DNA of 64,000 nucleotides from Owenia fusiformis. Lineage: Eukaryota; Annelida; Polychaeta; Sabellida; Oweniidae. Every line of letters starts with the position of its first letter. The first letter of the stretch is position 1. The stretch covers positions 25,843,915 through 25,907,914 of the forward strand of contig CAIIXF020000001.1 of NCBI GenBank assembly GCA_903813345.2, in the 5' to 3' direction. Made by a program: the position numbers and the translations under genes. The notes under the pieces were generated by a model that worked only from the letters and a program-made list of their open reading frames with translations, made no database searches and was not told where the DNA came from. Positions 7,248-63,935 of this stretch are shown piece by piece.

Positions 7248-8390
7248 TTCATCTAGTGTCAGAGACAGCTATTTCTGGGAGGTTGTTCCAGTCGTTGATG
7301 ACACGCTGGCTAAAGAATCCTTGTCTTAGGGCAGTACTTGTTCTGTTCTTGTAGAATTTCAGGTTGTTGTAGCCTCTGGTGGTGTTGTGGTTCAGTGTGA
7401 AAAACTGTGAGTGATCTATGTTGTCAATGAAGTTCATCAGTTTCTATACATGGATCAGGTCTCCCTTGTTCCTTCTGTAGTCCATCGAGAAGAGGTTTAG
7501 CTGTTTGAGCCTCTCAGTGTATGGCAGTTCAGACATATTGGTTATCATTTTGGTGGCTCTTCTTTGGATCTACTATATTTTGTTTATGTCCATATTATAT
7601 CTTGGGCTCCAAGCAACAGTACAGTATTCAAGGTGGGGGCGGACAAGAGTCTTGGAAAGGGGGAGAAGGATGTCTGGGTCTTTATTGGAGAATGTCCTCT
7701 TGATGGATCCTAGGATTTTGTTGGCCTTGTTGGTGCAGTTAGAGACATGATCATGGAATTTCAGCTCAGTATCTATTGTAACACCAAGGTCGCATTCTTC
7801 CGTATCTTCTTGTAGTGGAACTTGATTTTCGAGTAGTGTCAGTTGTTGTTTTTCCCTAGATGTAGGACCTTGCATTTACTGGTGTTGAACTTAAGCAGCC
7901 AATCGTTGGACCATCGCAACAAGTGCGTCTATATCTGATTGAAGCTGCTGGATATCAGGTTCTCTGAGAATTGCATTATACAGTTTGGTGTCGTCTGCAA
8001 ATATTTTGACAGTGGATAACACATGATCAGGTAGGTGGTTGATGTATATTATGAATGCCAGTGGTCCAAAGCTGGTTCCCTGAAGGATGTCACTCATCAC
8101 TTTGGTCCAGCCTGATACACAGTCATTGACTTTGACTGGTTGCCTTCTGTTTGTAAGGAATGCAGTGAGCCACTTCAAGAGGTCACCTTTGAAGCCGTAA
8201 CTGCTTAGTTTGTCGATCAGTCTTTTGTGCGGTATGCTGTCAATCACCTGGGAAAACTCAAAATAGATGACGTCTATTGTCTCACCCGAGTCGAGTAAAC
8301 TGGTCCAGTCCTCTAGCACAGTTAGGAGTTGAGAGCGGCCAGGCACAAACCTGTGATGGACGTCTGTTATGAGGTTGTGACTGGGCGAAG
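7248..8390 (-). mobile_element. Non-LTR retrotransposon remnant (reverse transcriptase, CR1/jockey-like)
   Basis: Minus-strand reading gives the second half of a LINE reverse transcriptase: IDVIYFEFSQVIDSIPHKRL (finger/palm), LQGTSFGPLAFIIYINHLPD, the catalytic-box variant FADDTKLY, then ECDLGVTIDTELKFHDHV, HLEYCTVAWSP and a VINDWNNLPEIAV C-terminus. The frame shifts around 7870-7920 and stop codons separate the blocks, so it is dead. The 5' part (endonuclease, ORF1) is missing. At 8391-8412 a 21 bp copy of its own 3'-end sequence (gacagctatttctgggaggtt, also 7264-7284) abuts the 5' edge, suggesting a second fragment. Confidence 0.88.
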
Positions 8391-8461
8391 ACAGCTATTT
8401 CTGGGAGGTTGATGATGTCAAATGGATAATACACATCTTTATCATGATTTTTGAGATTTGG

Positions 8462-16423: not shown

Positions 16424-19400
16424 ATGACAGCTCAGGATTTACTCAATCGGTTGCGTCAGTTCGATGCTTATCCTAAAACACTCGAAGACTTCCGAATAAA
16501 AACATTTGGGGGAGCTATTGGTGAGTTTTCTTTTTATTCTACAATTTTTTTCCAATTTTGAATACATGTTTTAAACAGAATATTACCTTGAGTGGGTGAA
16601 GTGACCACAGTTTACCTTCTATCGAAGCCGCCACTGTAGTCCGGCCTTGTGAGTGTACTACACGGAAGTTTGAAGTTCAATACAGTAAGTAATAAATAAC
16701 AGGTTAGGAAAGATCCATCTAGAATTTCATTTCTACATGGATACTGCGCATACATCCTGCAATGTGATTGGTCATAAGGCGGACCACGGATCATTTTAAC
16801 AATTTTGCAGTGCTTAGATTGGCAGTATCATCTTGCCATAATAGCAAGATTGAGGTATGAAATATGTTTTTCAAGATCCTTGAGGGTGTCATCTCAGGCC
16901 TGTATGACTAGGGATGTCACGGTTTCCTGATATTGTCCCGTCCCTTGAGGCTTTGGTCTCGGGACAAACGGGACAACCCTTGTGTACTGAAGATTTCGGT
17001 CCATGTTCAGGATATACTATATTTGTCCTGTATATGACCCTTAAACTTCCCAAATGCACAATAAATATGATCTAAACTAGAATTTTCTTTCATTTTTACA
17101 ACTTATCTGCCGGATTACGTTCATGTGTAAATGCCATCTAGTGGCAATCACTATAATATTGTGATAATGATGCGATTATAATAAACGGAAGTTCAGGACA
17201 GAACATGCAGTTTTATTGATAACATCGAAATATGCTTTAATTTAAGTGATAACAAAGAACGTCATCGGTGAGAAAGGTAGCATTACTTAAAATCAATCCA
17301 GTGGCGAAGCGTGGGTACCTTGTGAGAGTACGCCAGGAGTGAGCGAAGCGAACGAGCTTTGAGGGGGGGGGGGGATTGGGAGGGTTCTCCCCTCACAAGA
17401 AAATTTGCAAATGAGATTGTATTTGAAGCGTTCTCCATTTTCAAAATGTGGTGCATTCAATATGAAAATCAACTTATTTTTTTTTGAGAGTACGCCATGA
17501 CGTTATATGCGTATATGACGCTACGTCATTGAATCTCAGATTACAAGTTTTTGCGCAACATGAACTGTTTAGAGTATAGCTGTGTAAATGCTTCGCGGAC
17601 CAGCACTTGTCTGATATAACCGTATGCATGGTACATGATATGACCGCCGTCACGGTCTATTACTGGCTATCTCTTATTCTCTATACTATTCTCTTATTCT
17701 CTATTAATGGCTATCTCTTATTCTGGCCCACTGACAAAGAAAAACAATATTTAAGGTCACAGTGAAATCATTAAAAGGTTGGTGAGCATTATTTCTGTCG
17801 ATGTTTCATGGTTTGGGGAGAAGATTCCCGGGGATTTAAGTTGATTTGATTGTGAATATCGGCAGAAATAAGGTACGTTCGGGGGTTTTCTTTGTAGCTA
17901 ATGAAAATAGATGTTAGTCTTGATGTAATTTGATGAAAGTATCCAAACTTTGGTATATTTTGACACTAGGTCCATAATCTTTTGATAATTGTCTCTGCAT
18001 TACTTATTCAACCTTTAATGGTATCAATGGTATACTATGACACCATCTTTAGAAACATATAAACTTAGTATACAGAGTAACTGGGGGACATCTGATCATA
18101 ACAGTGAATGCCAATGGTAAAATATTCTGCATTATTTTCTGTTTATGGTAGTGCTTGGTAGGGGTGAATTTGTCAATGTACAGAAATGTGATCATGTTTT
18201 GCTAATTCATCTTTATAATAGAGTGAAAATTTCACTGAAATTCTTTAAAAATTGATGGTCTGAGATTTGAGAAATTCTAAGTTGAACTTTAAGCTGTAAA
18301 TTTACATGTATGGAACAAAAAGTGAGGAGAGTTCTACCTGTGCCAGCTTAGCCTTACTTATAGTGTTGATTATTCCATCGAATGAAGTTGCGGACTTATG
18401 GGGGTAGAAGTTCTGTTTGAGAGGCAATTTTCAAAATGGCGGCTAAGTTTAAAAATGGCAGCCATTTTAGCACCTATTTTACAATGTATAAAACTGTAAT
18501 AGCAATATTGTTTGAAATGTGAAAAGTTATATAGGACATTAATAAAGCTAGAAATGTTGATATTTAATGGCCGCAAATGTTTTTTACTATAATTCCCTGG
18601 CTAAATCATTGAACATTCCTCCTTTAAAATCAATTTTTATTGTCTTTTCAACAAATTGAAAATCCTCTAAAGTGAAAAAAGTTAAATGTTTAATGAATTG
18701 GATAAACAATATTTTATGATTATTTATTTTATGTTTGCAGTGACCATTGTGAGTGGAATATTGATGATGTTACTCTTCGTGTCTGAATTAAACTTCTACC
18801 TTACAAAGGACGTCCATCCAGAACTATTTGTTGATACATCTCGGGGACAAAAACTAAAAATCAATGTTGATATTACATTTCCGAGAATAGCATGTGCATG
18901 TAAGATGATTATACAAGTTCGGATTTTTTATTTTAAATTTGATGTTTTATCCAATATGAATCATTCTGGATGAGATAGTTATTAAATGATATCATTCTGA
19001 GTAAATATGATTGAAAATATTATAGTAAGTAATTTAACTTCAAGCATATATAAAATAATGAGCTAGTTTGAAAATAAAAGTCTTCTTACAATAATTTTAA
19101 AATCTCAAGTCTTAAAGATTTTATGATTATTCCGACAATAGATAATAAGGATCACAAAATAATAATTGTTATATCTTAATTTTAGATCTCAGTATTGATG
19201 CTATGGATGTCTCAGGAGAGTCACAGATTGATGTTGACCACAATGTATTCAAACAAAGATTAGATCTAGAAGGAAATAAAATAGATATTGAAAAGAAAGA
19301 AGGTTAGTACTTTGTTAACTAAATAAGACAAGGGTCTTGAGAAACCATTTTTTTAATGAATTTGTATTCATGTTTACTGTGGGGATGAAACAAATAGTCA

Positions 19401-22400
19401 AATACTCCTCAGCAAATAGTTAGTAAGCACATTTTATTGAATTTTGATAAATGTCTAATTTGCTGTTACTGCACTTCTACTTAATTTGCCGGTCCTCTTA
19501 ATCCACCAAAATAAGTAGGCCTAGCACCAACAAAGTATTTTATTTTGGAATATTTGGTACAGAACCAGGATCAGTTTAATGAAAATTCAGTACAAGAATT
19601 TGTTTCAGTCCCAGATGTTTAAGACTTGCTATGTATTTGACTTGGGATTGCATCTCCATTCTATAAAATAAATCTGACCAATGCAGGAGTCAAATCTGAT
19701 ACCTGAAATCTGAAAGTACCATTCAATTTAACATTGCTGAATTGTTAAGCCAATGATCTTCTTCAACCAATGTGATCTTTATCCCATACTATGTAAAAGT
19801 TATAATTACTTTAAAGATCTGGGAGACAAGTCAGAAAACATTACAGCAGCAGCCAAAGATGCCTTAGATCCTAAAAGATGTGAGAGTTGCTATGGTGCAG
19901 AGAGTACTGCCATCAAGTAAGTAAAGGACAAGACAAGGCCAAATGTAACTAAATAACATTTCCAATGCATGAAGATTTAAGCATTTGTTTGGAATAAAGG
20001 GATAATTAATATTCTGGATGCTTATTTGCTCATTTATTTTTTTGCTCAGATTTTTTAAATATGTATTTTTGAGATGAATAATAAGGCAATGTTTTGCTTC
20101 AGTTGTCACAATTTAAGATATTAATATGCTTTTTTTTATTTATGTTGTACAAGTAGCATGAGAGAATATTATGTATTGTTATAATGTAACATGAATAAAA
20201 TATTTCAGGTGCTGTAATACCTGTGAGGATGTTCGTGAAGCATATCGTCAGAAAGGATGGGCATTCAAGGATCCTGATGGCATCATCCAATGTTCTCGTG
20301 AGGGTTGGTCCGAAAATATGAAAGAGCAGAAGAATGAAGGCTGCCAGATGTATGGATATTTGGAAGTTAATAAAGTTGCGGGAAACTTTCATTTTGCTCC
20401 TGGAAAAAGTTTTCAACAGCATCATGTACATGGTGAGAAAAACTACCATTCCTTGATATTCTAATATTAATCATAAGAGATGTTTGTTTTTGTAAAGTTT
20501 ACTGATAAACATTCACTGATTAATTAATGTCAAAATCAAAAGAACCTTTGTTCCACAATGCACGCTCATGACATCTGCCCCAAGTGTTGTATGCTCTAAC
20601 TGCATAGGACAGTGATGAAATAATCTCATTTTGTGTAATTTAACTTCCTCCTATTTTATTTCAGTTCATGATTTACAACCATTTGGAGGAAATAAGGTAT
20701 GTACAGATATTGGTTACCACTTCTATCACAAAGGTTTAACTGCATGTATTTTATTATTAAATTATTATTAGGGTTTTTATTGACCTAATGGATCCCATAC
20801 CATGATCCTATCAAAGAATTTGTTCCAGGGTAATATAATAGTAGCTGCCATGTCGATATGTTATTTTCCTCTGTTTTCCTAAAGTGAAAACGCCAAAATA
20901 TTGCATGTTGGTGAACTTCCAGCAAAATATGCAATGTCAGCTCCTTGTTGTGTTTTAGATTTTTCGATATACATGTATAATCAAGCAATATGATACACTT
21001 TTTTGATCAATTACAGTAATTAGAGAAACCATATTTTGATCAAGCACTGTGAGAAACTGAGTTTTGATGAATCATTGTGACCAGTTTTGCTGAAATGTAG
21101 GTGAATGAATTTTGAATTATTGGACCATTTATTTGCTTGAGTTCATACATTGGAACGCATAAGGGGTGAATAATGAAAAATATACCTGTCCACCTAAAGT
21201 GAAGAAAATATGGTACATTTTTAAAAATGTTTGATAGTTTCATTTTTGGTCTGGCTAGAAACTAGAAGTAAATGTGACTAAGATATCCCTTGTCACAAGC
21301 TTGGTTTTTACAGTTGATCCCCTTCAGAGTAGTAGATTGACTGATCGATCTGGCATTGCAGTAAAGGTCCTTGAACTATCTCATACTTACAACTGTACAA
21401 GTTATACTTTGCATTTAGATTGATTTGAAATCAGCTCCTATTTATATCTTGATAATGCTCATATTGATGATATTAAAGTAATTTATTATATTTTCAGTTC
21501 AACCTCAGCCACAATATAAAACACCTATCATTTGGTACAGATTACCCAGGCATGGAGAATCCCCTGGATAAAACTACTACAATTGCAGAAAAAGGTAAGA
21601 ATCGAGCCTTATTTCTATTTCATGTGCCAAGTTTTTCACTTTCTCAAGTTTGGTCATTTCATTCATCTTACATGGGGTGTCATATTGATTTCAGATTTTG
21701 TGGTCATTTAAAAAGTTATTCTGGACCAATCTGCAAGTTTTCTTGTGGTTTTCCTCACCATGGGTCCATTAGATAGTACAATTCAGACATGGTCCAAGCA
21801 ATGGATTGCTTTATTTGGCTCCAAAAATGTTGAGCCTCTGAAATCAGCGACTCATCTATGCTTACTGGCTCACATGTTGGGCCTATGGGATCAACTGAAG
21901 AGTGCATACTCATATCCATTTTATGAGGATCTGAATGAGCTGGTAAATACCATAAGTAATGCCTCCTATTTTTGCTTTTAGACTTGTAAAATGTTATTAG
22001 CAATGATAAAGCTCAAATAACAATTTCAGGATTTATTCCATTGTAATATATAGGATAAATGTATCCGTGAAATATTTGTAAATTGATAACTTAATCTATT
22101 TGAAAAAAAACGGAAATGTGACAAAAAAATGATTTAAACCTGCACATCGCTCCAAAACGCAATATGTTGACATATATTGTTTTTACATTTTTAAGCTCTA
22201 ATATAAAGTTTATGTAAATAAAAATTGTTTTTTTCTGTGTTATATCAAAGAACAATCATTTAGTTAAAAAAAATAAAAAGGCGAATGCGGGATTCGAACC
22301 CGGGCCTCCCGCGTGCTAAGCGAGAATTGTACCCCTAGACCACCGTCTTCTTATGAATGTTGAATGTAATTAAACGCTACTTATTTTGAATGCTATGATT

Positions 22401-25400
22401 CGGAAGTGACGTCACGTTCTTCATTTAGAAACTTTTCCAAAATCATATCGTCGGCGCCGATCGAAGCAATTCAATGAATAATCTTTGAAATGACACATTT
22501 ATCGTAAGTATTTCTACACAAGATTTGCCCCATTTGTTAATCATTCTATAATCTTTCATTAAGCTCAAAATGATAAAGTTCACCCCAAACAACCCAAGAT
22601 TGCGTTTCGGAGCGCAGTCCAGCTTTAAGTAAAATGACATTGTCAAAAAGCAATCCTAATAAAATTGTTGGCTTCTTGGAAATGAGGCCAATTTGTATTT
22701 TTCAGCATGTGAACCCACCAAAAGTGCCATTTTGTTAGTCTCCAACTTTTTTGTGGCAGCAGTTGGTGTTCAGAGTTTGGCATTTGTAACAAATGGCAGG
22801 TGGTCACATTTTGCCCGTTAATGCCCTGTATATACTCAGGATCCCAGGAAATATAAAGGGAAAATCCACTATTTCGACTAATTTTATAGTGCATGTAAAT
22901 GTACAGTTAAACCATACTCAAGATACAAAAACATGAAGTAAAAATTCTCTATTTATTCCAAATGAATTGAACATGTGGAGCTATGAATGTCAATATTACA
23001 CTTGATCCTGCTAATTTTCAACTTCATCGACATCTTTATACTTCTAATAAATAATCTTCAGTTACTAATCACTAATGATCTCCTAGCTCATTCCACTCCA
23101 ATTTGTCAATACAAGTAATTGCCCTGCTTTGTGGCATTTAGTATATTTACATGTCTGTCTACTATGTCCTTACAAATAAATGCCGAGTGAATGCCAGTTC
23201 TTATTGTCACAAATGATGTAAATGTTCTACAACGTTTCTATTTTGGCGATCTTAAGATTGACTATTTATTTATTGATGTTTTATGCTAACATCGGATTCC
23301 AGTTCCAATTGCCATAAATGTTCCAAATGTTCCTCCTCCTTGTATCATCGTTTTTCCTACATTTGATATCAACTCTCTGCCACGCATCCCCATCCTGGAA
23401 GAATATTGTGTACAATATTACATTTTTATTTTCATTTAATTCCTATCAATTAATGAATCATTTTTTATCGTTATGTCCTGCAAGGACACATATTAATACT
23501 GATGTTCATTTGTATTTTTTCACTTATCATTCTAATGAAACTTTCCATTTGCAAAATTGACAAGCAATGCAGAAACTGACATCTTATGGCACAATTACTT
23601 TTTGTTTAATTTTTTGCAATCATTTATCTGTTCATTAATTGTCTATTACTTTGGTCATTTCATATTTCATGAAAAAAGTGAATTCTGACAAATAATAGGG
23701 CCAGGGGACCTAACTAGAAAATACCTCAGAGCTCCAAATCCTCCAAAAATGGCCCCTGAAGCCATTCCGACACAAAATCCAATGGTGGCTCCATATTTCA
23801 CTTTATCCCAACAGCTAGGTCCACCTTGGTGGTAACCTCCGGGTGGTGGTGCTGGCATTATTTAACCTAAGATAAAATGTATCAGTCTTTGTTCAGAAAG
23901 TTAACATTTTATCCAAATAGCCTAAATATATTATTCCAAGGACATAAGAACTCAAAACTGTTGGAAACTTCTTGCTCAAGTCCAGGATAAATCACATGGT
24001 CTTGTAACCCAACAAAATGGTAACTTAAAAATATAAACAAAAAGCAAGGTCATCATGATCATCCACATCTTATTGGAAAAAAATTTTGAAAAAATTAACT
24101 TCCAAAAATTATTATAAAAGGCCACAGCTTTGCTGCACAGTGCTCATTATACATAACTATCTGATTATACGCATCTGTATCATGATTACTAGAATAGTAT
24201 CCAGTTTTGACAGTCATACATGCCTGAGATAACACCCTACAAAAGGAAAAAAATGCGTATAAAAACACCTCTTAAAGGCGCACTATACTTAATTTAGAAG
24301 AAAAAATGAAAAAATAATCATTGAAACATGTTACTCACACACTTGCTCAAATATGACACAAAGTTTGATTTCCTTTAATATCAAACCAAGAAAAAAATAA
24401 CTCACATAGAAAAAAGCATTTGAAGTTCAGAGGTCATAAGACATGCATGCACATGCTAAACACAGTGCATGTTTTAAATTACTATTGATTTAAAAGATGG
24501 CGACACTTCTATAAAAATGAATGTATCATGTAATACAAACAACTTTGCCATCTTTCAATGACATTAATAAAAACTTGATATATAAAGCTTGACAGATCGA
24601 AAATATTTTTTGATAATTTATATTAATTGATGTGGTCCATTTGAGCTGTTGTTGGTGTCAAGTGAAAGATAAGGTTCTTATCAATACATTGGACATACTA
24701 TGAAATTTAAATGTCTTTATTTTGCCCAAAAATTTGAAAATTCCCAAAGAAAGTGTACCTTTAATATTATATAAAGCAGCACTATAAGGCGGGACTTAAC
24801 GCTCCAAGGCGTCGTTAGTCTATTAAACATACAGTTCATAAAAATATAATTAATAGAATGTAATAATATAATTCTGGTGTGAATAGAACAGCAAATATGA
24901 CGTAAATAAAGGGATTACAAGCTTTATTACCAGATTACTGTTCTAGTCTACTGCAAAGAAACGTATGTTTTTACATACACGTTTTTGGGATACCCGGTTT
25001 TTTCGACCGGGTACCAAGTTTGAACCCAGCATGGAGGATTTACTACCCGGTACCCGGTATTTTCTACAAACCCCGGAGATATGAGCAATTAGAGTGTAGA
25101 GTCTCAGATTTCCCTAGATAGGAGCCTGTCTTTTTTCTAAGTAATGCATAGTGAGTGGGAGGGGGATGAACTCTTGTTCCCGTGCCTGTGCTCATGTTCA
25201 TTTGACAAAATAAAATTAAAAAGTAAAAAAAAACTGTGATTTTGTATTCGATCTGGTAATTGTCTTATACCGTTGCATCATTGTGAGCCACTCTTTTGGT
25301 TGTGAAGAAATGTATACTTACCCTTATTTTAATTGTACTTTGATGCCAGTCTTCTTTATAATTAAGTAAAAGAGTAAGTTATTGTGTTTCGAAATTCTAA

Positions 25401-27475
25401 TAAAAATTATGTGATATTTTTTCACATGTCCAGTCCTCACTAAAAGTTGAACTTTGTGAAACGAAATTATTCTAAAATGAGATTATACTTCATTTATGTC
25501 GTAGCTGCGTTTCACATAACAATTCTATGATGTTAATACAATTAAATGAATTAATTAATCATATTTCAACAAAACATGTCTGCTACCTGAAAAAAGTTGC
25601 TAGATCCAATGCTGATCAATATGAAACAAGGATTGACGGTAAATCGTCGATCGGCCAAGTGGTCTAGGGGTATGATTCGCGCTTCGGGTGCGCGAGGTCC
25701 CGGGTTCAATTCCCGGCTTGGCCCAATTTTACCTACTGATTTTATTTTTATTGCATTCAAATGTTTTTAATCATAATTCCTTTTAATTTCAGGTTCTACA
25801 ATGTACCAGTATTTTGTAAAAATAGTCCCCACTACATATGTAAAGGTTGATGACCAGGTAATAATCATTTCCTTCTAAAATAAAATCAGTTTTCAAATTC
25901 ATATCTAATTTTCACGGACGTCAAGTAAGTTTCTGGCGAAAGCCGGAGCATAGATTATTTAGAGGACTGGAAACCAGAATGACCTACCTTTTTATTTCCC
26001 GAATCTCGCCTGAAATTAGCTCATCTTGGTGACTGTAACCTGTATATCTGTATTAATAGAGTCTTTTTGTATCGCATCTGCCTCAATTTTAAAGTTTAAT
26101 TGGTATCTTTAATATGATTTCACTGTTTTTATGGACTGGTACGATTAAGCCAAGCAAATGGCAGCTGATTTGTTCAAAGTACTTTTAGTACTAATTATCG
26201 CAAATGACAATAATTTAGGAAACAAAATTACACTAAATAGATTACTAAGCATCTAAGGTAAGTAAAACTAGATGAACAACTGAGTCAATAGTGAGAAATA
26301 GGCCAAAATGAACTGCCAGAATTGAAATAGACTGCCATCTTGTTTCCAGTACTCTAAATAATCTATGCTCCAGCTTTCGCCAGAAACGTACTTGACGTCC
26401 GTGCTAATTTTATGCAGCACATTGATACTTTGGGCTGAAATGAAAAGCGAATTCTTTTACCAAATATTCAGTCAGCAAATACCCTTTCCATCCCAAATAT
26501 TTACTTGTTGAAAACTAAATAAGTTGCAATGATTTTCAAGATTTGTCAAGTTTTAACTGATTGTAACATTTTGTACTGTCTTTGTAATGGAAATGAATCA
26601 ATGATATTTGTTTGTTTTTATAAATTACATGTTCTGTTAACAATTGTATTTTTTTTAAAAAGCATGTATAACTGTATTTTTGAAATTGATATAACTACAT
26701 ATAAATGCTATTTATTTTAGGTGTTATACACCAACCAATACTCAGTGACTAAACATCAGAAAGTTTCTAATTCTGTACTCGGTGAAGCTGGCCTTCCAGG
26801 AGTATTCTTTATGTATGAGTTGTCTCCTATGATGGTAAAATACACAGAAAAACAAAGGTGGGCTGATTTTTTTAACCCTTTGCTAATTGTTTAATGTTTA
26901 ATATTGAAATGTAAAATCTATGTTTTGCTCATATTTTGATCAAGTTATGTTTAAGAAACATTAGGGATTCTTCTTTCCATGTACATTTGTGTTTTTAAGC
27001 AATTCATGATATAACTATTGTCATGGTAATATAGTATTTTCTTGAATATTCTCCTTGCATAGTTTTAGTAAACCTGTAGTTGTGTATTATTAAATTATTC
27101 ATGGACCTATATGTGATAGTTTTTCTTTTATTTTCAGATCTTTTATGCATTTTCTCACAGGAGTATGTGCAATTATAGGAGGAGTATTTACAGGTGATTT
27201 GCAATATTTGCTTGTGAAACATCCATGAGAAATTTTGATAACAAGGCCTGAAAATGACTTTCTTGTTTGAAAATTGAAGTTGTGCAACTTTATTTATTTT
27301 GAAAATAGTGGTTTATTGATTTTAAATTAAAATTTAAATTGACACTTCATTATTTTTTATGTATTTTTCTTCATCAATTGATTTTCTATTTACAGTTGCT
27401 GGTCTCATAGATTCTGCTATTTATCACTCAGGGAAGATCATTAAGAAGAAAATAGAGATTGGGAAACAAACATAA
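16424..27475 (+). CDS. ERGIC3: ERGIC3 / Erv46-like cargo receptor (complete, 11 coding exons)
   Basis: Membrane protein cycling between ER, ERGIC and cis-Golgi in COPII/COPI vesicles; yeast Erv46 works with Erv41. Coding exons: 16424-16520, 18741-18899, 19186-19302, 19817-19916, 20209-20432, 20665-20696, 21498-21594, 25793-25857, 26721-26857, 27138-27193, 27396-27475. All phases close, giving 387 residues against 383 in human. Landmarks: N-terminal [20 protein letters not shown], first membrane segment [20 protein letters not shown], lumenal cysteines RCESCYGAE and [38 protein letters not shown], second membrane segment [20 protein letters not shown] and the basic tail [13 protein letters not shown]. 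The chosen ATG gives an N-terminus matching human; an upstream in-frame ATG at 16259 would add an unsupported 55 residues. Intron 7 (21595-25792) hosts ROMO1 and a tRNA gene. Confidence 0.97.
16713..16912. repeat. Dispersed repeat, copy 2 (inverse of 8462-8700)
   Basis: Reads as the reverse complement of 8462-8700 across about 200 bp: 'tttctacatggatactgcgca', 'caatgtgattggtca', 'tgcagtgctta', 'ttgaggtatgaaatatg' and 'gtcatctcaggcctg'. It lies in ERGIC3 intron 1. It has no open frame. Confidence 0.8.
18355..18590. repeat. Dispersed 'ccatcgaa' repeat, diverged copy C
   Basis: Shares 'attccatcgaa', 'gggggtagaagttctgtt', 'ttttcaaaatggcggc', 'gccattttagcacc' and 'attttacaatgtataaaactg' with the repeats at 575-838 and 53450-54265. 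It lacks the middle part with the gtccgtcc run, so it is internally deleted. It ends 150 bp before ERGIC3 exon 2. Confidence 0.7.
22280..22350 (-). pseudogene. tRNA pseudogene (Pro-like body, AGC in anticodon position)
   Basis: On the minus strand, A-box-like TGGTCTAGGGGTA and B-box-like GGTTCGAATCC are intact. The anticodon arm is TCTCGC-TTAGCAC-GCGGGA, which puts AGC in the anticodon position. The 5' acceptor strand (about AAGACGG) does not pair with the 3' strand ATTCGCC, and one T-stem pair is C-C. It is therefore not a functional tRNA, although it keeps the internal promoter boxes. It lies in ERGIC3 intron 7. Confidence 0.7.
23286..23858 (-). CDS. ROMO1: ROMO1-like mitochondrial inner-membrane protein, nested antisense in ERGIC3 intron 7
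   Basis: Coding exons 23858-23725 and 23394-23286 give 80 residues (human 79). The first exon encodes [20 protein letters not shown] followed by a Gly-rich membrane helix [20 protein letters not shown]. The second encodes [20 protein letters not shown] and ends [14 protein letters not shown]. These match ROMO1 helices and its C-terminal IRC. ROMO1 is a small inner-mitochondrial-membrane protein linked to TIM23 import, cristae and OPA1 processing, and reactive oxygen control. An acceptor (ttatcttag) ends 8 bases before the ATG on the minus strand, so a 5' noncoding exon lies further right, not located. A reverse-strand AATAAA lies within about 25 bases after the stop (near 23262-23272). The whole gene fits inside one ERGIC3 intron on the opposite strand. 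Confidence 0.95.
24272..24764. mobile_element. TTAAAGG-ended MITE in ERGIC3 intron 7
   Basis: Left end TTAAAGGCGCACTATACTT; right end reads, on the reverse strand, TTAAAGGTACACTTTCTTT. The end match runs about 15-18 bases with a few changes. The interior is AT-rich and noncoding. The TTAA at the ends may be target sequence. Confidence 0.6.
25653..25724 (+). tRNA. tRNA-Pro (anticodon CGG)
   Basis: 72 bases folding as a full cloverleaf: acceptor GGCCAAG/CTTGGCC, D arm in TGGTCTAGGGGTATGA, anticodon stem TCGCGC/GCGCGA with loop TTCGGGT (anticodon CGG, proline), T stem CCGGG/CCCGG around TTCAATT, discriminator base C. A-box and B-box are intact. A TTTT terminator for RNA polymerase III starts at 25727. 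It lies in ERGIC3 intron 7, sense to the host, only 68 bases before ERGIC3 exon 8. Confidence 0.96.
25913..26403. mobile_element. 491 bp TIR element with 8 bp target duplication (hAT-like) in ERGIC3 intron 8
   Basis: Inverted ends of about 60 bp: left CACGGACGTCAAGTAAGTTT then CTGGCGAAAGCCGGAGCATA; right is its reverse complement with a few mismatches, ending GTACTTGACGTCCGTG. The perfect 8 bp direct repeat CTAATTTT flanks it at 25905-25912 and 26404-26411. Eight-base duplications are typical of hAT (and P) elements. No transposase is encoded, so it is non-autonomous. Confidence 0.88.
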
Positions 27476-30400
27476 CATATGCTACAGTTTAGGAATATAA
27501 AAGATCATTTAAAAAGAGATGATTCATTGAAGATGTCTACCATTATTTCATCCATTAACATTGGAGAATGCATAACATGATCATTAAAATTAAATTTTAA
27601 TGATCCAGTTACAAATTTTCCAATTGTCCATATCTGAACTATCACTAAACATCATATCCAATGCAGAGAGAAATGGTGTTCCAAACTTCTCACTCAGTTG
27701 TCCTCTTTGCAATAAACATAATTACTAGGATATTGAGCTAATTTTAGGCCATTAAGGCACTTGCTTTTCCAAAATATTCCTTACTAAGTTTAGTAATGTC
27801 TTACCTAAGTTATCTAGGCCTAATTGTTTTTATCTAGAATTGGGTTCTTGTAATTTTTTTATACATACAGTTATGTATGCTGGCTAACACTGTGAAGGGG
27901 CCTTGCATAAAGTTCTTTCTGTTAGTAATTTTCTCTTATAAAATGCAAGGTGAATGTAAAGAGAATAACTATAAACCTGAAGGATGGCATAGAAATCATG
28001 CAAGACTACCAAACTTGTAACAATGTTTTCAGTCAAATACTAGAAAGATGTAGATGTTTTGTTATAACTAATTTAATCACACTATACATAGGTACATATA
28101 TATACTTTAATTGTAAAGTTAATGCCAAGAACCGAAAGACTATGAAGTCTTTCTAATCTCACATACATTCATTATTTAAACATCTCTCAAGCAGATTATT
28201 CATTGTTCTTTGCGAAAAATACACCGAAGCCTTGAGGTTCAATTTTTTCATTTTAATCCAAAAGTTACACTTAACTGGTACATATGGGAACGCTTGAAGT
28301 GCTCAACTTTATATTTTGAATTTATTTAATAGTATTATATAATCCAGCTACAATGTGAGTACATGTTATCATAAGAAATTCAATCTGCTGATATAGTCTC
28401 TAATATTTCAAGCAATCAGGTTCTAGCATGTTACATTGTATATCATCGTGGTAAGCCACACCCTCTCCAAGAGATGCTTTGAGTATCAGAATGTTGTATA
28501 TAAGGTTATGTGAAACTTAACTTTAAAATGAGATATATTTTTGTTTTTTATTAAAAGCACCTTCCCATGTGAGCCAAGCACCCATGGTACCATTTTTGTG
28601 TAAAATGTACCATTTATTTTTGTTACACAGTGATGTGTGAGGGTATTCAAATTATTTGTACATAGGGTATTACTATTTCCACACATTTCATAAACTATAA
28701 TGTTAATACTTTACAATTGTACTCCGAAATGCATTGATTTACAGTTTGTTATATTCAATTTGTTACTATACTATTTTTGTTGTTGTGATGTATCAAACAG
28801 TGTCAAAGGAAGGATAATTTAATATAGCAAATGGTAAATAATGAAACTTTCATGTAGCAGTTCCCTGTATGATGTTCATTAACATGTCAGTGTTAAACTT
28901 ATGTCATTCACATCTCATGATTTCAATGGTAAGTGTTACATAGCATGGTTAAATTGGTTTGTCAAAGCTCTTCATAACAAAGGATTTTATGCCTTTATAG
29001 CCCCAAAAATCCTTCATTAAGGAACATTTTTTGTCAAAATGTTTGGTAACGAAGCAATTTAACCCAGTGTGTAATGCTAACCAATGAGGAAAAACAGCTG
29101 ATTTTCTGAAGAGATAAATTATAATTTTGCATGATGCTTGATATTTGTCATGCCAGATGGATTCAGTGTCCTAGTATGAGCAATTTTCAACTGCTGATGA
29201 TTGTCCAGCAATTTTTATTATGTGGTCATTCTGATTTAATAATAACCATTGATATATTTCTTTAATAAAGGGCTACTACTGTAGCTGTAATTCTCACCCT
29301 AAATAACCTTAATTTTCCCGAAGTTGAGGTCAAATCTGTATCATAATTGATAACATGTGATAATGAATATATATCATATTTGTGATATTTTACAAATGCA
29401 TTACAAAAACATTTTTTTCTGAATTTGAAAACTTCCAACAATGTGATGTGAATTTTTGCGAGGTGATTTCATGACATCGGGGAATGAATAATCGTGTGAC
29501 TGTTGTTTTGAAATGCTTGGTTTAGTTTTATGAGTGAATCTGTGGAATATGGCAACTATTCCACAGATATCACGACATTTTTTCTGAATTCGAAAACTTT
29601 CAACAATGTGATGTGTATTTTTGCGAGGTGATTTTATGACATTGGGGAATGAATGATCATATGACTGTTGTTTTGAAATGTTTGGTTTAGTTTTTATATG
29701 AGTGAATCTGTGGAGTATGGAGACTATTCCACAGATATCACATTTTTCGAATTTGAAAACTTCCAACAATGTGATGTGTATTTTTACGAGGTGATTTCAT
29801 GACGTCAATGGATGAATGATCGTATGACTGTTGTTTTGAAACACTTGGTTTAGTTTTATTAGTGAATTATGGGATCAATAGAACATCCTATGAATGTTTG
29901 TAATATCATTTTAATCCACTCATCGATAGCAATACCTGCACTCATTCACTACATTCACTCATCCATATATTCATAATCAACTTGTGGATAAAATGATATT
30001 TCTCAAAATCATAGGATATCCAATACATATCTTTAATTCATAATGTTATGTAACTTACACAATCAAGAAACTAGGACAAAAAGATTCTTTTCTATAATGA
30101 TTTTCAGAAAAGGAGTTTTGGTTCCAATTGATTGTATAAGTAACATATTATTATGAATTGAAAATATTTTAGGGTCATTAAGGATGAAGATTACAGCTGC
30201 TGACCCTTTAAATTGGGTTGGGGATTAAAAGCAGCTTGCTACACATTTATTTGCTCTCCACCAGAAATGGTGAAAGGGAAAGCATGTATTTATTTTGATA
30301 AAATCTGAACATGTTGAAGTTTTGATAGATGTTTTGCCGTTCTATTGCACATATATTGTATGAGTTGGGTTTGGGTTTCAATATTAATTCATTATTCATT

Positions 30401-33100
30401 TCATAAGGGTACATGTATTTTTATTAAAATAAAAAATAGTTATTAAATATATATATTGATTTCAAGATTTTATAAATAATATCCACAAAAAAATCATAAT
30501 AAATGATATGTTCTTTGTTATCATCAAAGCTTCACATCACATGAACTAAGGAGTATTGACATTGTAAAGAATATGAATATATGACAATGAGGGTGTGTCA
30601 TAAGGATAAGGATTCCACAATGATTGCTGAAAATTAGATTTTTTACTTGTTCCATACCTACAGTCTGAGAGTAGTATACACCAAATACAATATAGATAAT
30701 TGTACAATACTGTACTGTATAAGTGTTATTTAATCTGAGTGGTTGATTTGCCGAATGGTCAAATATTTTCATTTTCCTGATTTTGATTTTCCTAATGACA
30801 AGAAGAAACTTCCCATTGGATAACATTATGAAGATAATATTTCCGACTTTAATTTTCCAAACCTGGCAAAAATTTGGCAAAATTACCACTTATACAGTAT
30901 ACATGTACATACAGAAAATATCAGCATATGAAAAACTGATTCCAGGCCCCAGGCCAATGCTTACATTATACCCTGCAGTAGTAGCTGCACATGTGCAGAC
31001 TGTAACCAAGTGTATTTTACCATACCAACTTTGCACAATTTTATATAGCCCTAACTCTTATAGAAAATGCATCAATGGAACTGTAACCGAAAAGGACAGA
31101 ATAAAAGAATTTATTATTAATACAAAAATATTTTTATTTAATGTTTTTCAGCTTTACATGAAGTGACAGAAACTAAAATAAATAACTAAGTTTCAAAGTG
31201 GTAAATATGATAAGTGTAAATATGCAAAGTGGCTTTAAAGGCTTTATATTAAGTTTATGCTATAAAAGAATTTCACTTTGCAAAGTCACAACCAGAACAT
31301 GTGCTCTGTACATTGTTTAAAACCTTGTGGTATTTTACATTTCACAGGAGTGTTTAACTCCAGGATAAAATCATTTTGACTCTGCCAAAATTAATTTTGT
31401 CAAGCCAATACTAGTAACATAAGCACATTGATAAGCAGCTCGTAAATATTCTTAATAAAGCATATGTTTTCATGGACATAAATCTCTGATTCAAAATACT
31501 TGCTGAACAAATTCATGTACATTTGAAGCAAGAGCAAAAGCTCAACATTACTTGACACTACTCTTGCATCAATGATCAAGTCTCTTCCTCCTCCCCCTCT
31601 GTCTACTTTAGAGTGTTGAGGGTCACAGGGGGTTGAAGCAAGACTACTTTGGCACCACTTACAGAATACAGGATTTCTATTGCTTCTCCAATCATGTCCA
31701 GATGCGTACTATACAGTACATACAATAATTGCACAATCAATATTGAAATGAAATAGATATTTACAATAATTTTTTAACAATACATTTACATGTGATAATA
31801 AAATCTAGACAAGGCATTTATTGATGTACAAAAGGTCACCACCTGTCATTTGTTACAGACAGCAAACTGTGAACACCGTCAACAAAAACGTTGGAGAATA
31901 TACAAGTGGTGACATAAAAACAGCAATTCCACAGAGCAGCAAATCCCATCAAACAAAATATGTTTCTCAGATCCATTTTGACTAATTCATGCTAAAATGA
32001 AAAAATACACTAAAACTATCTAGTGGAATTCAAGTTATGAGCAATTTTAAAAGAAATGGGACCATTTTGATCTAGCTACATTCTGATACTCAAAGCATCT
32101 CTCTCTGTTGCATCGCAGAGATGGATAGGGCGTGGCTTACCAGAATGATCTATCTAGGCTATAAGTGAACTTTCTTAACCTTCAGAACAGCAGTAATTTT
32201 TAGTAACATCTTATAATGAATGCACTTGACATCCTTCTGGATGTACAACAAACCAAATCTGTAAATGGGTCTTCCAGACATGAATAGAATAATGTCAGAT
32301 ATTTCAGATACGAGCCATTTTAAAAAGTATTTCATAAGCAGACATTCTCCAATTTCCATATTGCATCAACTTGAAAAATGTAGGTAAATCTGATGGAATT
32401 TGAGTTTTGGCCTGGAAACATGGACAGTTGGCCTGTATAAATCCCTACACAAACTTCATTTGGTGGGATAATAAAGAATATAAATTAAATGTTAAATGAA
32501 AGCATTGTGATATCAAAAGTTTAGATATATTTGATTTTATCATTCTCTAAATATTTGAAACCATCCTTCAAGATGAAGCTTCAATGCTATAGCAGCTATA
32601 GAAAGCATTGAAATACCTTTGGACCAAGGATGAGTTCTATCATCATTCAGCAACAAATCACTCATTTATGTCTTCTATAAAGTAATTCTTGAGTGTCTTT
32701 CAGTCATGTGTATTGAAAATTCGTTTTCAGTAAGTAAATCACACCAACTAATAATGAGAAATATTTTCACTGTGCTCTAACCAACCTACTTGACAAATTC
32801 AAGTCCAGAATAATTGTATTCTCAACCAATATGGAGTGTACCAGATTTCCCTCATGTGAAATATAGTAGAGCTTATGTCACTGACTGATCATAGATACTT
32901 CCCAAGTGGAATTACTACAATAAAATTTTGCAACAAGAATTGGAGATAAATACACATATGTACCATCAAAACTAGTCCTGCATCAATTCCTTCTGAGTGT
33001 AACTTACTAACCATCTTGACTTGACGCAAGACTATTTTTTTACATTTTTTGATTGTAAATAAGTTGTACTGTTTTGCTTTAATTTGACAGTACTGAGTGT
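27476..33100. other. Convergent ERGIC3 / FAM8A1 3' region, no further gene seen
   Basis: Both flanking genes end here. A candidate ERGIC3 poly(A) signal AATAAA lies at 27711-27716; others such as 29262 are possible. The stretch is AT-rich with a tandem repeat at 29421-29860 and an inverted pair of dispersed fragments (28441-28498 and 32080-32142, sharing 'aagccac', 'agatgctttgagtatcagaat'). Short open frames at 30524-31166 on both strands are AT-rich and look accidental. Confidence 0.5.
29405..29860. repeat. About 164 bp tandem repeat, nearly three copies
   Basis: 'gaatttgaaaacttccaacaa' recurs at 29421, 29586 and 29749, each followed by 'gatgtg.atttttgcgaggtga', 'atgactgttgttttgaaa' and 'tttggtttagtttt'. 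The repeat keeps a minus-strand frame open over two units, but its codon content is repeat-driven and I do not call a gene. Confidence 0.85.
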
Positions 33101-36288: not shown

Positions 36289-39184
36289 TTTTCTTCCAAT
36301 AATAGGTAATATCGATAGTATTCGAGTTTTATTGAACAAAATAAAAAATATATATTTTAGAAATTACAACTGACCGGATTACGTTCTTCGTATAAGTAAC
36401 TTCCGGTGGGGACCGATCATTAAAATTAGACTCGAAATGTCTTATGAACCTGTTTTACACGCATGGATCTTGATTCCCATGCATTTTTCATTGGTCTAAC
36501 TCAATGCCGAATCGGAATATTGGACTTTGATATCCTATTTATTCGATTGACTGAGATTCTAGGTGAAAATGAAGACTTCCTGTCTGATAAAACTGAATGG
36601 GATTGGGATTTTTACTTTGAGAATTGTTACCCCTTTCGGGGTTAGAAAAATAAGTCTATAGACTCATTATAATGTTCCTCTCCACGGAAATCTTTAGTAA
36701 AAGGCGAAAGATTTATGCGTGGATGAAGAGAAACCAGAGTGCCTTGAAAAGAAAATTTTGGATATATAAATAATCCTTGTAGCAATAAAATATGGTGTTT
36801 TATTAAAAGTGCTTACATATTTATCAGGTTTAAAACAAGTATGAAAACACAAAGTTATTTATGATTGTGTTCAGCAGTTTTGTCAAAAATGTAATGACAA
36901 TTTGGTATAAAAATCTTTTGGTTTTACTGAAGGAACAAATTGATACACTGGCTTTTTGATAACACTATATTTTTACATCCAGGATCCCATACATTTAGTC
37001 ATTCAAACAATTTTCGTTTTGCCTTTGAAAAGTAGTCAAGCTTCAAGCCCTTGTAAGCCCTCCCCCTCCCATCGGACATACCTTGTGTTGGTGACATATA
37101 AAGTGGGGGCACAAAAGCTTTCGAACCCCTCACTCCCTTCGGTCGTTTGGGAAAACCTTTGTGTCTAGCCCTGTGGGGTGTATTCAACAATATTACCCCT
37201 GCTCTTCGGTCTATATTTCTTAACTAAAACATGCGTTTTCTCTTCTTTATTTAGCTTTCTATCAGACATTGATATTTTGATGCCGCCCCTTTCAGTGACA
37301 ATGTTGAATGACTCATTTGACTTGATATTATTGGCATGCAAAAGATACACTCCTCTACCATAAGTTTTCAATGGATAGCCAATTTATGTTTAATAATTTT
37401 GATCCTAATAGACTAGATGCGAGTAGAAACAATCTTGATATTTATCATGAAAATTCAAATGTGACTTCTTAGTCAGGGAGATTCCCAATAGACCCCATTA
37501 TATAAAAATCACAAAAAGTGAAATATATTTTTTTGTATTGGAAAAATAATATTTTCTTTTATTGGATCTATTTTAATTTCTATAACAATCAGATACACAA
37601 GGGTAATATGAAAAATGAACCACTAAAACTTATGAATATTCAAGTATAAGGGAACTTTCTAAATACCTGCCATGTTATCGGACCCAAATGAGCCACCTGG
37701 TGATGAAACTGCTAACTACCTACTCGCATCTGAGTTATTACAAAATTTATGACGAGGAATTGATGAATTTTTTAAATCTCCAAATATAATCAGGCTTTCA
37801 TCTGTGATTCAATAGGGACTTCTGGTTTCTGGTTGGAGGGGAATATTTGTTTGTTCTCCTTTGTAATTTTTGTGTCACTCTCTTGTAAATTCATAATCTT
37901 ATACATGTTATAAAACTCAAAAAACTTCACTTGGAATATGGTCCAGTTATTTAATTCTTACCAACTAAAGATTTGCTGGATTATGTTTATCATTTTGATG
38001 ATGATGGCCTGTAAAGGGTTGACATACCAACTTATATGCTCTATTTTGTAGGAAAATAATTTCCATTACTCATGGGACACTATGTATCTAACTTATTTGA
38101 TCCACATTCTTTTGATAATTTACCAATTTCAAGCAATTTTTGTCAAGGATGCTCGCTAGATCTGAACCTTTAACAAACTAGAATATAACACTGTTTTGCC
38201 AAAGTGCACATTTTATTTATTCAGTATTAAATATTATATTATTCCAAACTGAACATTTAAAAATCTACAAAGTTGCATATTGACTCATAGAATACAATAT
38301 TGTACATCAATGTAAAGATATTTTGAATTCCTAACAATTTTGCATACCAGTGTATTATCATGGTTTATCCTCAACAAGAACATTCTATTACACAATTTGT
38401 AAAGTCAGAAGTTTGGGTGTAATTTTAAATATCTGAGAAATAAATGTTTTGTTCTTCCTGAGTCTGACACTCCTGACTTTATATAATATTTTAGGTGATG
38501 TCATTTTTTTCATTTTTCAAAAAGATATAGGCTACATTTGGACGAGGGAATATGTGAAACTATTCTTGTAAATCAATGATAACAGTGATATAATAGCCAT
38601 TTATGCTCAGCTGAACCCTGGAGTCCACCTTCTTAAATGTATTTTTGATATACAAAATTATAATTTATGTTGATTTCAGCTATACATGTCAATTCATGAC
38701 AACAATTTTCTTGTTCATCAATGATAACAGTGATATAATAGCCATTTATGCTCAGCTAGAACCCTGTAACCCCCTTCTTTAATGTAATTTTAATTTATAA
38801 AATTATAATTTATGTTGTTGTCAGTTATACATGTTAATTCATGACAACATTTTGATTCATACCAATAGTTCTGTTGTTCAGTGAGTTCATATCCTTAATG
38901 AAAATATCAACAAAGTACCAGGCTACCAGCTCTTGAAGTTTAATGGAGTTGAACTGAAGTAAAACATCCATCTTCAATAGCATATCTGATCTCACTCAGT
39001 GTCCAACATAAGATAGATATGTTTATCCCGAGAACTCTATGATCACAATATTGCAATGTAAATCATTTGAGTTCTAACTAAGTATAATGATGATTGTAGT
39101 GAGTGTTGATCTATCTCGAATCCTGTATATTAAGATATTCTTATGAGTATCCATTATGTCCTAAATCCCAGTACAATTAGACCT
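36289..39184. other. FAM8A1 / CENPW intergenic region
   Basis: Holds the FAM8A1 promoter and probably the CENPW 3' untranslated region. A 60-codon plus-strand frame at 36463-36645, divergent from FAM8A1 and followed by AATAAA at about 36785, matches nothing I know and is left uncalled. A tandem duplication of about 140 bp is at 38571-38850 (sharing 'tcaatgataacagtgatata' and 'ccatttatgctcagct'). The remainder shows nothing gene-like. Confidence 0.5.
38571..38850. repeat. Two-copy ~140 bp tandem duplication
   Basis: 'atcaatgataacagtgatat' followed by 'aatagccatttatgctcagct', 'gaaccctg' and 'aaattataatttatgttg' occurs twice, starting near 38572 and 38716. The copies differ at scattered positions. 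Confidence 0.8.

Positions 39185-41534: not shown

Positions 41535-63935
<22,401 letters not shown>

Follow-up and report, generated by a model that had tools for sequence, protein, structure and literature searches.

A probable working ROMO1 gene and a tRNA-Pro gene nested in intron 7 of ERGIC3 in Owenia fusiformis

We analyzed a stretch of 64,000 nucleotides from the Owenia fusiformis genome (hereafter, the window) in which ERGIC3 occupies positions 16424-27475 of the plus strand, downstream of an aldehyde dehydrogenase gene. Splice boundaries were tested up to 6 nt from ERGIC3-like peptides, producing four open models of 384-387 aa that are identical except at the end of exon 2 and near the junction of exons 5 and 6. 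The longest of these, at 387 aa, comprises 11 coding exons (16424-16520, 18741-18899, 19186-19302, 19817-19916, 20209-20432, 20665-20696, 21498-21594, 25793-25857, 26721-26857, 27138-27193 and 27396-27475) separated by GT-AG introns, and from exon 5 onward its product matches the Pfam family COPIIcoated_ERV (E 2.2e-89). All four models place intron 7, which contains the nested genes described below, at 21595-25792 (4198 bp), with a single boundary available on either side, exactly where the original prediction had drawn it. The next ERGIC3 intron carries, at 25907-26409, two 72-nt arms that are 92% complementary and 359 nt apart, which looks like a MITE-type element.

On the minus strand within intron 7, joining 23858-23725 to 23394-23286 yields an uninterrupted 80-aa frame ending in a stop. 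The first coding exon (23725-23866, with the ATG at 23858-23856) follows a candidate acceptor AG at 23868-23867, whereas the last (23286-23394) closes with the stop at 23288-23286; the intron between them has its donor GT at 23724 and its acceptor AG at 23396-23395. The product matches the Pfam family Romo1 over the entire profile (1-66 of 66; E 2.6e-25, 89 bits, cut-off 27.6), placing it in the ROMO1/Mgr2 family, and also matches Mgr2 in PDB chain 9j9b_D (E 4.5e-13). Every ROMO1 coding exon lies within this one intron of the host. A two-exon, 80-residue ROMO1 gene antisense to ERGIC3, with 23725 joined to 23394, had been proposed for this intron, and both the gene and its junction were reproduced here by joining at the sequence level, with an uninterrupted frame, GT-AG ends and the full family profile. 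Just past the stop, two overlapping AATAAA signals lie at 23265-23274 on the minus strand, the first beginning 12 nt after the stop codon. In the account given in PMC6363466, ROMO1/Mgr2 is a TIM23 subunit; the window protein shares the full-length family match and, at 80 aa, is otherwise unremarkable.

Among the NCBIfam profiles, a library built for prokaryotes, the ROMO1 protein has no match. Pattern searches for relatives gave 3 ROMO1 matches in viral contigs and 70 in prokaryotic genome contigs, none of which was confirmed, as well as 1 unconfirmed match of an ERGIC3 piece in viral contigs. Because the collections scanned consist of viruses, plasmids and prokaryotes, these misses are uninformative about animals.

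Codon usage adds a further view of the ROMO1 frame. Using a score trained on 1028 codons from the other genes of the window, with ROMO1 left out, the two exons of ROMO1 take places 19 and 30 among 1136 open stretches of at least 30 codons in the window; the score is not fully specific, as the training pieces necessarily score high and some frames in the shadow of real exons do so too. The sole other stretch above 8 bits that starts in intron 7 (23698-23793, plus strand, 12.4 bits, rank 20) is a shadow frame partly opposite the first ROMO1 coding exon. A sense ORF of 89 aa in the same intron (21712-21981) has a protein-like look and was treated as a chance frame: Pfam yields nothing for it up to E 10, its best PDB match is at chance level (E 1.7), and it is absent from the intron 7 stretches that exceed 8 bits by codon usage.

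These features bear on whether the frame might be a silent extra copy, that is, a pseudogene, with the working ROMO1 at another locus. The donor of the coding intron, GTATTT, is weak, scoring 0.49 bits versus 6.57 for the best donor upstream, and this would fit a silent copy; the intact frame, the junction, the start and stop codons, the poly(A) signal and the gene-like codon usage all count against it, and we consider this reading very unlikely. Nor is the copy a plain retrocopy, given that its coding part contains an intron. The nested ROMO1 is, judging from the sequence, probably a real, working gene.

The start of the predicted transcript is less sharply defined. An AG lies 8 nt ahead of the ROMO1 ATG; two more occur farther out within ~70 nt upstream, and with three in so short a stretch the acceptor candidate at 23868-23867 could be a product of chance. 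Scoring donors with a weight matrix, we found the best one on the minus strand of 23860-27500 at 25321 (AAATAAGG followed by GTAAGT; 6.57 bits), which ranks 11th among the 3280 minus-strand GTs of the window. Together, the AG before the ATG and this strong donor suggest a non-coding ROMO1 first exon within intron 7, and on the splice model some non-coding exon upstream of the ATG is likely. We place the predicted exon at 25322-25400 on the minus strand, where only the 3' end, set by the donor GT at 25321, is a prediction and the upstream limit is a guess. The runner-up donor at 25987 (6.14 bits) is located outside intron 7, beyond ERGIC3 exon 8, in the stretch bounded by the 72-nt inverted repeats. 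We prefer 25321 as the modeled end of exon 1 because the whole gene would then stay in intron 7 and would start no more than ~330 bases from the tRNA-Pro gene, pointing away from it; should 25987 serve exon 1 instead, ROMO1 and ERGIC3 would overlap and would not be strictly nested.

That tRNA-Pro(CGG) gene, at 25653-25724 on the plus strand and, hence, sense to ERGIC3, was detected both by ARAGORN and by Rfam (54.4 bits, cut-off 29). It folds into a complete cloverleaf with the anticodon CGG, contains an A box and a B box and is followed by a TTTT terminator at 25727-25730, all as expected of a nuclear tRNA-Pro gene, so that the intact tRNA-Pro(CGG) predicted in sense orientation in the same intron holds up. 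At 22288-22343 on the minus strand, there is a degenerate tRNA-Pro-like sequence that is 80.7% identical to the tRNA-Pro over 57 columns and still has both boxes (A and B) with a T run after them. We call it a tRNA relic because its acceptor stem is non-complementary (as judged by eye), neither ARAGORN nor Rfam reports it, and the T run follows directly; a working tRNA-Ala(AGC) and a SINE head were rejected as readings of the same sequence. One guess is that the relic arose from the neighboring tRNA-Pro by inverted duplication. Beside it, at 22195-22594, two 200-base steps have CpG observed/expected ratios of 1.51 and 1.61 (the window as a whole has 0.41), and the plus strand carries the motif CGGAAGTGACGTCA at ~22401 and GTAAGT at ~22504; this region looks like a putative promoter. 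Elsewhere in the window, a U5 spliceosomal RNA gene is found at 36627-36742 on the minus strand (Rfam 84.4 bits, model positions 1-117 of 117).

The intact frame, the splice signals, the family membership and the tRNA can be read directly at the locus. Beyond these, we infer that ROMO1 is expressed, that it has a promoter and a first exon of its own, and that this is probably the sole copy, although a further ROMO1 locus may lie elsewhere in the genome. We have good confidence in the explanation that ROMO1 works here in the ordinary way and forms a transcription unit of its own, antisense to ERGIC3 and contained in its intron 7. RNA polymerase II would transcribe ROMO1 from a promoter toward the 3' end of intron 7, the transcript would be spliced from the non-coding first exon to the two coding exons, and polyadenylation would occur just past the stop. 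The protein (ROMO1/Mgr2) would serve the TIM23 presequence translocase as its small subunit in the inner membrane, the tRNA-Pro would act as a separate Pol III gene, and ERGIC3 transcripts would drop the entire nested interval as an intron.

As an arrangement, such nesting is not exceptional. Among the simple nested pairs tabulated in PMC8467205, 220 in human (74.3%) and 193 in mouse (77.8%) are on opposite strands, and the introduction of that paper, citing an earlier study, states that in animals nests have formed more often than they have been undone. The LRRTM genes in introns of alpha-catenin genes, as portrayed in PMC3933685, are likewise complete genes that lie on the opposite strand in a single intron of a host to which they are unrelated. 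The ROMO1 of the window has a coding intron of its own, whereas internal genes are described in PMC8467205 as typically short and intronless. The window itself appears to hold a second antisense nest: a minus-strand carboxylesterase gene, seen as three pieces within 49626-52108 (COesterase E 4.7e-40, 2.8e-33 and 3e-11), is flanked on the plus strand by a DEAD-domain exon at 47837-48067 and by Helicase_C exons (from 60610 and 61118). We take the DEAD and Helicase_C exons to be one DEAD-box helicase gene that hosts the carboxylesterase; in PDB, the DEAD piece has no match at 1e-10. Antisense nesting being common in animals and present a second time in the window, the nesting of ROMO1 is an ordinary one, and the title of the original prediction made the ROMO1/ERGIC3 pair sound more singular than it is.

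What sets the pair apart is its possible connection to gene order in vertebrates. The original prediction had pointed to linkage without nesting in human, where ROMO1 and ERGIC3 share band 20q11.22. The published table for cattle (PMC11331311) lists CEP250, an unnamed gene, ERGIC3, another unnamed gene, SPAG4, CPNE1, RBM12, NFS1, ROMO1 and RBM39, and that for turkey (PMC8470100) lists PHF20, RBM39, ROMO1, NFS1, CPNE1, RBM12, ERGIC3, CEP250 and GDF5; we assume that both follow map order, and neither gives strands. If so, ERGIC3 and ROMO1 are un-nested and separated by five genes in cattle and by three in turkey (PMC11331311, PMC8470100), and the vertebrate side of the earlier claim fits these tables. 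The CEP250-ERGIC3-...-NFS1-ROMO1-RBM39 block in cattle and turkey thus brings together the same two genes that share a neighborhood in the window, but with other genes between them, whereas in the window ROMO1 is nested. The evidence for closeness of the pair comes, for cattle and turkey, from these tables (PMC11331311, PMC8470100) and, among invertebrates, from this window.

With only three to five genes between ERGIC3 and ROMO1 in turkey and cattle, an old linkage is plausible, and we lean toward the view that the pair descends from an older close linkage that was kept in un-nested form in cattle and turkey; ROMO1 would then be nested in a gene that was probably once its neighbor. Alternatively, ROMO1 might have reached the ERGIC3 intron by a duplication or move unconnected with the closeness seen in amniotes, which would also be compatible with a working gene. 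Such a coincidence accords with the statement in PMC8467205 that internal genes often arise through duplication and insertion into introns, and with the content of the window: a Pfam scan of 30 window peptides (selected ORFs, some overlapping) detected no family expected of CEP250, SPAG4, CPNE1, RBM12, NFS1 or RBM39, and the wider neighborhood therefore lends shared synteny no support. A chance landing in precisely the gene that is a near neighbor in amniotes seems unlikely unless the ancestral chromosome was already shared, which is our judgment and not a computed value, and we regard coincidence as rather doubtful.

The history may also have run in the opposite direction, again with a working gene at the locus, if the nest goes back to the ancestor of bilaterians, or of a major subset of them, and a local rearrangement in vertebrates took ROMO1 out of its host. 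One such rearrangement could give the spacing of three genes in the turkey table and five in the cattle table (PMC8470100, PMC11331311), but the excess of nesting over un-nesting events in animals, as reported in PMC8467205, favors the reverse order of events, and we find ancestral nesting unlikely. In the literature searched, which largely lacks subscription papers, we found no description of ROMO1 nested in ERGIC3. To our knowledge, there is no second example. In its boldest form, which we hold to be similarly improbable, ROMO1 was inside or beside ERGIC3 in the bilaterian ancestor, and the nest was kept for more than 500 million years in some lineages and undone on the way to vertebrates; if this were true, the vertebrate block of a few intervening genes would represent a rare, documentable un-nesting.

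The broader value of the locus depends on how the pair is arranged elsewhere. Should nesting or adjacency of ERGIC3 and ROMO1 prove widespread among invertebrate phyla, the two genes would cleanly mark ancient gene order and allow the formation and dissolution of nests to be studied. Antisense nesting is well known; what is new here is another instance of it, made modestly interesting by its link to the order of genes in amniotes. As it stands, the locus adds a further housekeeping gene to the known antisense nests, and its main use is in getting annotation right, because a gene of 80 residues on the strand opposite a host intron is easy to overlook.

The window also contains traces of mobile and repetitive sequences. 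A reverse-transcriptase (RVT_1) match at 7894-8394 and a zf-RVT match at 53668-54222 (both Pfam, minus strand) represent remnants of LINE-like elements. Within intron 7, the segment at 22732-22829 is an interspersed repeat, shared with 31829-31905, 42269-42319, 51586-51615 and 62501-62571.
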